Source of the DNA: Desulfurococcaceae archaeon
GTDB lineage: Archaea; Thermoproteota; Thermoprotei_A; Sulfolobales; NBVN01
Reading direction: 5' to 3'
DNA length: 34,269 nt
NCBI GenBank assembly: GCA_020833415.1
Contig: JAJHQJ010000012.1
Location: 1 to 34,269, forward strand
Numbering within the stretch: position 1 is the stretch's first letter; each line of letters opens with the position of its first letter. A program made the translations under genes and the position numbers. Below are positions 1,722 through 28,854 of this stretch, in pieces. The notes below the pieces were generated by a model. That model ran no database searches and was not told the DNA's origin. It saw only the letters and a program-made list of their open reading frames with translations.

Positions 1722-2201
1722 TCAGCCGATGGCCCTTATTAGTGTTGCCAATCTCTCCGACGCTCTTACCTTCCTAGTTTGAAATACGTACCTAACCCTA
1801 ATGTCCACTATATCGCTATGGGATGAGATTCTCTCTATAGCCCTTGCTAGAGCTAAGTCATCTGTAGCTACTACCTTAGCTACTATCGGGTAGTCCCCGC
1901 TAACTTCGTAGAGGTCAATAACCTCTACGTGCTTTAGGAGGTCTTCGATAACCCTAGAGAGACTCTGGGGTCTGGGCTTGACTTCGATCAGTGCCTGGGC
2001 ACCTAGTCCGAGCTTACCTAGGTCTAGATCTACCGTAAAGCCCTCTATTATGCCGGTTGCTAGGAGCTTCCTTACCCTCATGTACACGGTAGAGATACCT
2101 AGGTTTAGCTTAGAAGCTATACTCCTTAGTGAGGTCCTAGAGTTTCTAACTAACTCAACCAGTATAACCCTATCAACGTAGTCAACCCTCTTCAGGGACA
2201 C
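1722..2201 (-). CDS. Lrp/AsnC family transcriptional regulator
   Basis: N-terminal HTH (DRVILVELVRNSRTSLRSIASKLNLGISTVYMRVRKLLATGIIEGFTVDLD) followed by RAM-like domain. Confidence 0.88.
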   Translation of the reverse strand: MSLKRVDYVDRVILVELVRNSRTSLRSIASKLNLGISTVYMRVRKLLATGIIEGFTVDLDLGKLGLGAQALIEVKPRPQSLSRVIEDLLKHVEVIDLYEVSGDYPIVAKVVATDDLALARAIERISSHSDIVDIRVRYVFQTRKVRASERLATLIRAIG

Positions 2202-2293
2202 CTAGCCCACCGCGGAAGTACTCTAGGAGGAAATAAGTACCTAAGCTGGAGGTCCGACCCCCTAAGGCTTATTAGCTTCTACATACGTAGTTC

Positions 2294-2352
2294 TGTGGAT
2301 GATGTCTACGACGGGCGGCCTGATGTTGATGAACCACTGTAGCTCTGACAGC
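2294..2352 (+). ncRNA. C/D-box sRNA (dual guide), predicted 16S rRNA 2'-O-methylation guide
   Basis: Box C ATGATGT (2299-2305), guide CTACGACGGGCGGC (2306-2319), D' CTGA (2320-2323), C' TGATGA (2327-2332), 12-nt guide ACCACTGTAGCT (2333-2344), D CTGA (2345-2348). Canonical order and spacing. Ends approximate. Confidence 0.85.
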
Positions 2353-2361
2353 TAGCCCTAC

Positions 2362-3411
2362 TCACTCCTTCACTAGCTTTACCCCGTACACGTACTTCCT
2401 GGGTGCGTAGTCGAGGACCCTCCTGAGCTCTACCAACCTGTAGGGGGCTCTACCTACTCTACTAACAATTTCGGAGGGGTCCTCACCGCCTACTACGTAG
2501 AGGTGTATGTAGCCCCTGCGCTCTACGAAGCTAGCGGCTAGCTCTAGGTAGTCCAGGGACCTGTGGGGTAGGTCTACTATAGCCCTAGTGAATGACTCCC
2601 TAGGGAGGAGCTCCCCCAGTTCTTCAACTCTTGAGACAACCGGTACTATGCGACCTCTGAGCTTATTGAGCGTCGTCGACCTTACTAGAGCAACTATAGC
2701 GTATGGGTTCGAATCTACCGCAACACACGTAGTGTGCCTCCTGAAGGCTATGTGGAGACTAAAGCCCCCTACACCAGAGAAGAGGTCGAGTACCCTCTCA
2801 CCATCCCTAACCTCCTCCGAAACCCTCCAGTGCTCGTAGGAGAGCGTTGGGTTAAAGTAGGACTTCGATATATCTACGTATATCCTGACTCCGTACTCCC
2901 TATGGACTGTCTCGGTCCCACCCTCACCCCAGAGCTTCAGCACCCTCCTAACCCTGAACTCCCCCTCAGTTACTGAGACCGCGTAGACTGCTCTCACCCT
3001 AGCAACTCTAGCTAGAGCCTCACCGATTACCATACCATAAGGTAGGATCTCCTCAGGTAGGTGGATTAGGGCTAGATCCCCCACTATCTGGTAGGACCGC
3101 GGAAGTGCGGTGAGAACCTCCTCGGGGACCTTACCACGTAGAAGGTCGACGTACCTAACCCCTCTACTACCTAACTTAAAGATATCTCTACACCTCACTA
3201 CCTCTATACCCAGAGCCTCTAGAGTTGCTACAGCATCGTCCACTAGACCCTCCGGTACTGGTATCCTAACCCTCCTACTACCCTCTACCTTAGAGGCCTT
3301 AGCACCCCTAGCGAGGAGACCCTTACTCCTCAGTACTCTAATAGCATCCTCGGCAATCGAACTCGGAACCTCAACGCAGTAAAGCTCTTTGTAGGATAGG
3401 GGGTTACCCAA
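2362..3411 (-). CDS. tRNA (guanine37-N1)-methyltransferase, Trm5-like class I SAM methyltransferase
   Basis: YFNPTLSYEHWRVSEEVRDGERVLDLFSGVGGFSLHIA; ...AIVDLPHRSLDYLELA (DLPH at NPPY position); Trm5/TYW2 family architecture. Confidence 0.85.
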   Translation of the reverse strand: MGNPLSYKELYCVEVPSSIAEDAIRVLRSKGLLARGAKASKVEGSRRVRIPVPEGLVDDAVATLEALGIEVVRCRDIFKLGSRGVRYVDLLRGKVPEEVLTALPRSYQIVGDLALIHLPEEILPYGMVIGEALARVARVRAVYAVSVTEGEFRVRRVLKLWGEGGTETVHREYGVRIYVDISKSYFNPTLSYEHWRVSEEVRDGERVLDLFSGVGGFSLHIAFRRHTTCVAVDSNPYAIVALVRSTTLNKLRGRIVPVVSRVEELGELLPRESFTRAIVDLPHRSLDYLELAASFVERRGYIHLYVVGGEDPSEIVSRVGRAPYRLVELRRVLDYAPRKYVYGVKLVKE

Positions 3412-6191: not shown

Positions 6192-6890
6192 TTACTTGTA
6201 GATCGCGTATACCATCGCGTGGTCCTTGTCATAGGGGTCTAGGTGAACTACATCCACTATCTCGAAGTTCCCGGCCTCTAGGGTCTTGATCTCCCTGACG
6301 TATATCTCGTCAGGCTCCTTAGTTACGTCTATACTCCTAGCCTTTATAGCTAGGTACAGAGCCCCACCGCTCCTCAGGAACATCCTAGCGTTGGCGTTCA
6401 CTATACTCGCCTGCTCGGGCTGTGCTATATCAGCGTAGAGTACGTCCACCTGGGGGACTAGGTAGGAGTACCTCTCCGGGAACCTAGCGTCGGCGAGTAC
6501 TGGGACTACGTTCCTCCTATACTCAACTACCGTAACCAGCTCCCTCATTACCCTCGGTGCGAACTCGACTGCGTAAACAACCCCCTTCGGCCCTATAATG
6601 TCGGATACGTGGCTTACCGTCGTACCGCTCCCAGCTCCTAGGTAGAGTACTCTACACCCCTCCGATATGGCTAGTTCCTTAATACCCTTGTAGAGGGCTG
6701 CAGCTAGCTTACTCCTTATGTGGTTCCACTCCCTATACTCCACGTTCTTGTAGACGAAGAGGTACTCACCGTAGACCCTCCTCCCGGGGGTTAGGTTCCT
6801 AGTTGCTAGCCTAACCGAGCCGTCCTCCAGCTCTACTATGTAGACACCCCTGTAGCTAGGGTGCTCCTTAACGGAGACTACCTCGATCAC
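6192..6890 (-). CDS. flpA: Fibrillarin-like rRNA/tRNA 2'-O-methyltransferase
   Basis: YREWNHIRSKLAAALYKG, VLYLGAGSGTTVSHVSDIIGPKGVVYAVEFAPRVMREL. Confidence 0.97.
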   Translation of the reverse strand: MIEVVSVKEHPSYRGVYIVELEDGSVRLATRNLTPGRRVYGEYLFVYKNVEYREWNHIRSKLAAALYKGIKELAISEGCRVLYLGAGSGTTVSHVSDIIGPKGVVYAVEFAPRVMRELVTVVEYRRNVVPVLADARFPERYSYLVPQVDVLYADIAQPEQASIVNANARMFLRSGGALYLAIKARSIDVTKEPDEIYVREIKTLEAGNFEIVDVVHLDPYDKDHAMVYAIYK

Positions 6891-6928: not shown

Positions 6929-8131
6929 CTACCTCTCAGACCTCCTGGGCTTCTTAGCTGGCTTAGGTGGGGGAGCCTTTGGCGGTGGCTTAGCGTAGAG
7001 GGTCTTGACCTCCTTGATCCTGTCCTCGAGGATCTTCCTAAGCCTGTCGGCTATGAACCGCCCGGTGTAGTAGTCAGCCCTTGCAGCTATAGCTAGCTTA
7101 GTAGCTAGGGCCCTAGCGATCTTACCTCTCTGCCACTTAGGTGACCTATGGATGTCCGGGTACTGGAATATCACCCCGTGCTTAGGTGGCTTACCACCAG
7201 TTCTCAGAGCTCTGAAGAGCGCCTTCTCAGCCCCGAGAACCTGGATGGTACTAGCCGGTAGCTTAGCTAGGTCGGCTAAACTCCCAGCTAGGCTTAGAAG
7301 TCTAGCACCCAGTAGAGGGCCTACGAGCTCTGTTATATTTGGAGCTACCTCCTTCATAACCTGCTCTAGGTACTCCGAGAGCTCCCTCCTAAGCTCGTAG
7401 AGCCTTAAGATCAGGTCACTGAACTCCCTGATCTTGCCTAGATCCAGCTCCGGGACGTCGGCCCCGATACTCTCCCCAGCTACCTTAGCTATCTTCTCAG
7501 CTCTACTACCCTTAACTCCCAGTTTAGCTAGGTTCTCCATAGTGAAGGTGTCTCTGGAGCCTAGCTTAGATACTAGGGTAGCGTACTCCTCGTGCTCCTT
7601 AATCAGGTCGTCAAGTTCCGGGAAGTGGATGCTGTACCACTCCCTAAGCCTAGAGGCGAACAGGTTTATCGTCTTATCCAGGTCGTCTATAGCCCTAATA
7701 GCCTGGATGGCCATCAGGTCCCGCTTCAGGGCCTCACGCCTTAGCTTATACCTAGTTACAGCTAGCGATATCTCATACGTAAACTCACGGAACCTCTCCT
7801 CGCTATCCACCAGACCGGTCTTAACCGCTAGGCTGGGCAGTAGTTCCCTAGCCTTCAGTATGAGGGGGTCCCTAGGGTCTAGCAGGTACTTCAACCCCCT
7901 CTGGGCTAGGAATGAGGCCTCAACCTCTGTTGAGACTACGAAGACCGTGTCGGGTTTAACTAGCTTACCAACTAGTTCAGCTAGTTCTGAGCTTACCTCA
8001 CCACCCTCGATCTTAAGGGCCCTCTCAATTATGTAGCCCCTATCCTCCTTAGGTACTGCAACGTACTCTACACTACCGTCCTCAGCAACAGCTATAGCAC
8101 CGGCTAGAGTATCTAATAGAGCTACCTTCAC
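6929..8131 (-). CDS. Nop5/Nop56/Nop58-like C/D RNP core protein
   Basis: NOP domain: APNITELVGPLLGARLLSLAGSLADLAKLPASTIQVLGAEKALFRALRTGGKPPKHGVIFQYPDIHRSPKWQRGKIARALA; basic C-terminal tail; adjacent to fibrillarin. Confidence 0.97.
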   Translation of the reverse strand: MKVALLDTLAGAIAVAEDGSVEYVAVPKEDRGYIIERALKIEGGEVSSELAELVGKLVKPDTVFVVSTEVEASFLAQRGLKYLLDPRDPLILKARELLPSLAVKTGLVDSEERFREFTYEISLAVTRYKLRREALKRDLMAIQAIRAIDDLDKTINLFASRLREWYSIHFPELDDLIKEHEEYATLVSKLGSRDTFTMENLAKLGVKGSRAEKIAKVAGESIGADVPELDLGKIREFSDLILRLYELRRELSEYLEQVMKEVAPNITELVGPLLGARLLSLAGSLADLAKLPASTIQVLGAEKALFRALRTGGKPPKHGVIFQYPDIHRSPKWQRGKIARALATKLAIAARADYYTGRFIADRLRKILEDRIKEVKTLYAKPPPKAPPPKPAKKPRRSER

Positions 8132-28537: not shown

Positions 28538-28854
28538 GGGGGTGTGCGGGTAGGGCTGGGAGTTCGCCGCCTCCCCTCGCCGAAGGCGTAAGGCGGGGCC
28601 AGTAACCCGTACCACCCGGAGATCCCCGCTCCCGGAACTCCGCGTCAGCGGTGAAGCCCGCCCCGTGGGGTCGGCGGTGGCGGAGGCCCTCCTGGAGGGG
28701 AGGGTCTACCGCCTTTGCGGGGGGAACCTGGCCAGGCCCGGAAGGGAGCAACCTAACCCCCGACGTCGACGTTCACGGGTCACCGGGTAGAGGACGGCGC
28801 GGAGAGGTCCGGAAGTGGGTTAGCTCCGGGTGGGAGGGGGCCGCACACCCCCTC
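28538..28854 (+). ncRNA. Signal recognition particle 7S RNA
   Basis: Terminal stem GGGGGTGTGCGG/CCGCACACCCCC; S-domain core CTGGCCAGGCCCGGAAGGGAGCAACC; about 317 nt; TATA-like sequence upstream. Confidence 0.93.

Follow-up and report, generated by a model that had tools for sequence, protein, structure and literature searches.

Known guides at the decoding site and the wobble base

The closest described counterparts of the RNA gene discussed here are the archaeal dual-guide sRNA sets of Sulfolobus, Pyrococcus, Pyrobaculum and Ignicoccus. As described in PMC4644070 and PMC7994747, these show the same box order and spacing, the same D/D'+5 rule and a guide to rRNA, in genomes that, as here, also encode fibrillarin and Nop5. 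The sRNA of our host differs from the usual archaeal dual guides in that one of its guides is predicted to address rRNA and the other a tRNA. Those sRNAs of Pyrobaculum that are directed to tRNA are reported to carry a second guide that lacks a target (PMC7994747).

Methylation of the rRNA residue concerned, C1402, is known from earlier reports in all three domains, archaea, eukaryotes and bacteria. Table 2 of PMC11542601 lists Cm1369 in the 16S rRNA of P. abyssi, the same archaeal site as predicted for our host, and the consulted portion of that paper names no responsible guide; the 18S counterparts given there are human Cm1703, yeast Cm1639 and Arabidopsis Cm1645 with AtU43, and E. coli is also listed with ribose methylation at C1402. 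An earlier note on this DNA had drawn attention to C1402 through the m4Cm of bacteria, which is sound, but Cm1369 places the ribose methylation in archaea as well. In bacteria, RsmI (with RsmH, giving m4Cm1402) adds the same 2'-O-methyl group to the same residue and, unlike our sRNA, is a stand-alone protein enzyme that works without a guide RNA. The eukaryotic guides at this 18S site, of the U43/snR70 type (snR70, human U43), share with the host sRNA the rRNA position and the use of RNA-guided fibrillarin; they differ from it in that its second guide aims elsewhere. For archaeal helix 44, a survey of seven species offers sparse predictions, the part consulted naming the positions equivalent to A1408 and G1494 (PMC4644070).

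Guides to position 34 have been described in archaea for tRNA-Trp, where the intron serves as guide (sR50, Cm34/Um39), and for tRNA-Met and tRNA-Leu (PMC7994747). All of them bring a C/D sRNP to the wobble base, as predicted for the second guide of our host, and in the tRNA-Trp case the action falls on the intron-containing pre-tRNA, as proposed here. Our host is set apart by a guide in the form of a separate sRNA, by tRNA-Cys as the predicted target tRNA and by G34 as the predicted base. In the literature searched, Gm34 of archaeal tRNA-Cys is nowhere mentioned; an earlier prediction of either target in a related species is possible. A study of S. acidocaldarius tRNAs was unable to isolate tRNA-Cys (PMC7668247).

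A dual-guide sRNA gene and its surroundings

The window analyzed is a stretch of 34,269 nt from a Desulfurococcaceae archaeon (contig JAJHQJ010000012.1). As the earlier note had proposed from the letters alone, a C/D-box sRNA with C-D'-C'-D layout lies between an Lrp and a Trm5 gene, and fibrillarin and Nop5 are encoded in the same window; domain matches bear out all four genes (Table 1). The sRNA occupies a 160-base gap (2202-2361) between two neighbors that are both on the minus strand.

Table 1. Features of the sRNA locus and of related genes in the window.
Feature	Position	Strand	Basis or remark
C/D-box sRNA body	2297-2351	+	match to model R1, E 6.0e-17 (host sequence itself part of R1)
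TATA-like box CTTATTAG	2268-2275	+	about 25-30 nt upstream of C box; read by eye
C box ATGATGT	2299-2305	+	sequence reading
D' guide, 14 nt	2306-2319	+	pairing segment CGACGGGCGG at 2309-2318
D' box CTGA	2320-2323	+	sequence reading
C' box TTGATGA	2326-2332	+	sequence reading
D guide ACCACTGTAGCT, 12 nt	2333-2344	+	sequence reading
D box CTGA	2345-2348	+	sequence reading
Lrp/AsnC-family regulator gene (flank, outside sRNA)	1722-2201	-	PF01037
Trm5/TYW2-family methyltransferase gene (flank, outside sRNA)	2362-3411	-	PF02475
Fibrillarin gene, predicted catalytic partner	6192-6890	-	PF01269, E 6.6e-100
Nop5 gene, predicted scaffold partner	6929-8131	-	PF01798, E 4e-73

The four boxes stand in order, lie close to the RUGAUGA and CUGA consensus and are conserved in an alignment of 31 sequences. 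The C box agrees with RUGAUGA at six of seven letters and retains the complete k-turn core UGAUG, and both guide lengths fall within the norm of about 10-14 nt for archaeal dual-guide sRNAs. A dual guide also needs fibrillarin and Nop5, both encoded here, and a target base at D/D'+5, which C1402 of 16S rRNA and G34 of pre-tRNA-Cys provide. These features confirm, at the level of the DNA, a gene for an archaeal C/D-box dual-guide sRNA that is presumably transcribed. Motifs resembling TATATTAG recur about 25-30 nt upstream of the C box in congeners too, which suggests that the TATA-like box could be the sRNA's own promoter.

At its curated cut-offs, Rfam yields no family match at the locus. The best weak match of several homologues is sR3 (RF01133), likewise a C/D-box sRNA; its guide sequences differ from those of the host, and membership was rejected with 16.7 bits for the host and 28.9 bits for the best homologue against a gathering cut-off of 41. 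Elsewhere in the window are an archaeal signal recognition particle RNA (28543-28847, 141 bits in Rfam) and three tRNA genes.

How widely is the element spread? By DNA similarity it turns up in 21 genomes out of 41, one of them the host. The sequence model R1, made from 31 copies, has matches in 158 of the 216 genomes of the order, spread over ten families; eighty of the matching loci were fetched and read, and the weaker ones may include truncated copies or other sRNAs. In several genomes of family f11 the sRNA immediately follows a tRNA gene, by its sequence tRNA-Ala (L302 and L303 in G193 and G198, L239 in G182), an arrangement that suggests a joint transcript.

The D' guide and C1402 of 16S rRNA

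The host's 16S gene was found in the same assembly, outside the window (L001), and its decoding site reads ACACCGCCCGUCGC (C1400 and C1402 are numbered after E. coli K-12 rrsH). Aligning the guide to the host's own 16S, the check that the earlier note had proposed for its 10-nt complementarity with C1402 at D'+5, gives ten of ten Watson-Crick pairs between guide positions 2-11 and CCGCCCGUCG, with the D'+5 base G2315 facing C1402. By energy, this site is the best partner of the D' guide among the host's 16S, 23S and 38 pre-tRNAs (8,593 bases). Since 2.0% of letter-shuffled guide cores also find a Watson-Crick match somewhere in the host rRNA, even before the register is required, the match in a single genome is only suggestive.

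What strengthens it is comparison. Among the retrieved homologues, those whose D' region is complete keep the motif CGAYGGGCRR, and the D' guides of family f5 read GGGCAG in place of GGGCGG, that is, with A at guide position 3. Position 1400 of 16S is U in all six f5 genomes read and C in the other 29 read, so that the pairing in the D'+5 register is kept where the 16S changes. This compensatory change strongly supports the D' target, as far as sequences can speak to it. In family f1, G008 and G017 carry this A too; their 16S is outside the 1400 counts. With R1 matches in 158 of 216 genomes and co-variation of guide and 16S at position 1400 in f5, conservation across the order places the D' finding beyond chance. 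That C1402 is what the D' guide would address is well supported.

A site in 23S was considered as well, where the guide could form nine Watson-Crick pairs in a row plus a G.U at GCCGCCCGUU. It was rejected: in the 31-sequence alignment, position 1 of the guide varies freely but no variation is seen at position 11, where 23S is mismatched, a pattern that the 16S site fits better.

Several observations stand beside this result. C1400, which adjoins the wobble base of the P site, is nearly universal and is replaced by U in all six f5 genomes read (G050, G064, G065, G068, G069 and G083). Altiarchaeota loci (L059, L063, L108 and L112) hold a C/D-box sRNA whose D' guide is of the C1402 type and whose D guide is unrelated; for this sRNA, common descent and convergence are both possible. 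An archaeal-looking C/D-box sRNA with such a guide is also found at positions 3187-3222 of a contig labeled Thermodesulfobacteriota (BQJP01000058.1, L075), which is probably a mis-binned archaeal contig. The host's 16S gene (L001 1501-3365) measures 1865 nt, about 390 nt more than the family model, and one insert, by eye, resembles the remnant of a LAGLIDADG homing endonuclease (LLGVIQGDGYVG); from the extra length and this remnant, the gene probably contains introns.

Two candidate targets of the D guide in the host

For the second guide, the earlier note had pointed to a region of 16S resembling GGCUACAAUGG. Complementarity does exist there, with T2340 facing A1236, but it is broken by a C.A mismatch between C2337 (guide position 8) and A1239, the single mismatch within positions 2-11. 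Pairing around A1236 is thus interrupted in the host and unbroken in most genomes of the families other than f1. A better partner is the host's pre-tRNA-Cys(GCA), where the guide pairs with GGCUGCAG/UGGU at 12 of 12 positions, two of them G.U, at -20.0 kcal/mol against -13.2 kcal/mol on 16S. A1236 is therefore a doubtful target of this guide in the host, judged by base pairing.

The pairing with pre-tRNA-Cys is unbroken, spans the exon-intron junction, reaches four bases into the intron and puts wobble G34 at D+5, opposite T2340 in one of the two G.U pairs. Among the host's 16S, 23S and 38 pre-tRNAs this junction is the best partner of the D guide, and 0.7% of letter-shuffled D guides attain 12 of 12 somewhere among the host pre-tRNAs. 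ARAGORN calls the tRNA in question tRNA-Ser(GCT); this was rejected on its short variable loop and its relatives, which identify a tRNA-Cys(GCA) with an intron at 37/38. Rejected too was 23S, which offers the D guide no uninterrupted partner. Across the genome, CTRCARTGR has 49 matches and its reversed control 48, so mRNA targets are not distinguishable by this search.

The two candidate targets, GGCUACAAUGG in 16S and GGCUGCAGUGG in tRNA-Cys, are themselves alike. They differ at two positions only, with A in the former and G in the latter facing guide positions 5 and 8: a U in the guide fits both, a C fits the tRNA only.

The D guide across the order

Can the history of the D guide be read from its relatives? 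The introns of tRNA-Cys were read across the order against the D guides, with 94 genomes yielding both. All 27 genomes of family f1 with both genes read have C at position 5, position 8 or both, so that 16S is mismatched, and in all 27 the pairing with tRNA-Cys is free of mismatch at guide positions 3-11 (in G008 and G017 position 2 mismatches). Outside f1, most D guides have U at both positions (U5U8), and the majority of these U5U8 guides match 16S perfectly over positions 2-11. Families f2, f4, f5, f7 and f11 also include guides with C at position 5 or 8.

Guides with C5 or C8 change together with the intron. At position 9 an A-U pair is replaced by U-A (G201) or C-G (G184); at position 10 U-A replaces C-G in G035 and G057, and at position 11 it does so in G009, G012, G019, G035 and G201. 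Such complementary changes at positions 9, 10 and 11 are found in f1, f2, f5 and two genera of f11. After removal of identical pairs, none of 20,000 shuffles reached the pairing observed for the 24 distinct guide-target pairs of this class, whereas the 34 distinct pairs of the U5U8 class gave P 0.27 in the same test, whose statistics ignore shared ancestry. Matches at position 12 are at chance level (P 0.33).

For f11 the intron letters were predicted from the guides before the introns were read. Opposite guide positions 9-11, all three intron letters were predicted correctly for G201 and for G184 (in the latter the prediction was wrong at position 37), and two of the three for G187, G186 and G190. 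Several tRNA-class guides of the Sulfolobaceae-like f11 have one or two mismatches to their own tRNA-Cys within positions 2-11, at C33 or at guide position 11. Taken together, co-variation across the order supports pre-tRNA-Cys as the likely partner of the tRNA-class guides. In G201 and G202, both of genus g75, the sRNA and tRNA-Cys genes are convergent and a few tens of bases apart (L349, L350), and their tRNA-Cys appears to have two introns; this neighborhood of sRNA and target gene was seen in these two genomes only and is not a general linkage.

Weighing the readings

Our preferred reading, held with reasonable confidence, is that of a dual guide whose D' half would direct methylation of C1402 and whose D half would act mainly on G34 of pre-tRNA-Cys, with transcription, sRNP assembly, methylation and timing all deduced from the DNA. 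Together with L7Ae, Nop5 and fibrillarin, the sRNA is predicted to form a ribose-methylating sRNP. Its D' half would pair with helix 44 of 16S and place a 2'-O-methyl group on the C1402 equivalent, at the P site in the decoding center. The D half would pair with unspliced tRNA-Cys(GCA), at the end of exon 1 and the start of the 37/38 intron, and methylate wobble G34 prior to splicing; because this pairing spans the junction, the sRNA would have to work while the intron is still in place. The best-working duplexes are reported to have 8-10 base pairs (PMC7089733), and both proposed pairings can give that length.

One detail tempers this picture for the host. The guide base facing G34 is U, giving a G.U pair, there and in most of f1. 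An in-vitro study of an archaeal sRNP reportedly found that the target base must form a Watson-Crick pair. Given this, the host's G34 may be bound but poorly methylated. The same U would pair properly with A1236, on which residual activity may persist in the host.

Does the sRNA then serve both targets in the host, with U5 pairing with A1236 as well as G34? We regard such bispecificity as unlikely, though its probability is not negligible. It agrees with the retention of U at position 5 by the host and most of f1, where C would improve the tRNA pairing, and with the leftover 16S pairing, which has a single mismatch (position 8) within positions 2-11; against it, every f1 guide read mismatches 16S, and nine of the 27 have C5, which cannot pair with A1236. 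We give still less credence to a guide pair devoted to 16S alone (C1402 and A1236), with the tRNA-Cys match as a by-product of the resemblance between targets. Two guides to one rRNA are the common arrangement (PMC7994747), and in most genomes outside f1 the D guide is perfect on 16S GCUACAAUGG. Against this, six families include guides with C5 or C8, letters that fit G34 and G37 of tRNA-Cys but not 16S, and in several lineages the guide co-varies with the intron at three positions.

More improbable again is a D guide in decay, or one with no role beyond that of a folding chaperone, that methylates neither target. Many genomes have a G.U or a mismatched target base, which would agree with this, as would the chaperone roles proposed for sRNAs whose guides bridge sites (PMC4644070); yet the 31-sequence alignment shows no change at positions 3, 4, 6 and 7, and complementary changes keep the pairing, which is unlike decay. 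A chance coincidence of boxes and complementarity in an untranscribed intergenic stretch can practically be dismissed: modest as the single-genome odds are (the 2.0% of shuffled D' cores), boxes and guides are conserved across the order while the flanks diverged, and both guides co-vary.

For the sRNA family as a whole, we lean slightly towards a history in which the D' guide stayed fixed on the decoding-site cytosine throughout the order while the D guide changed its target several times, from A1236 to the wobble base of unspliced tRNA-Cys or back, by way of U-containing guides that fit both, with intron and guide co-evolving. The ancestor of the host's D guide likely paired with A1236 of 16S, U at both differing positions being able to serve either target.

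Implications

The ribose methyl group of C1402 is the work of a protein enzyme in bacteria and of an RNA-guided enzyme in eukaryotes. A guide that spans the order and shows a compensatory change offers a concrete archaeal gene for this modification. If the proposed reading of the D guide is true, it would illustrate how a methylation guide moves from rRNA to tRNA through a form that fits both, and one RNA would link the modification of the decoding site to that of a tRNA wobble base. The intron of tRNA-Cys would become part of a modification signal, and its sequence would gain a selective reason for conservation. As the states of the guide vary between relatives, the idea is testable in cultured species.
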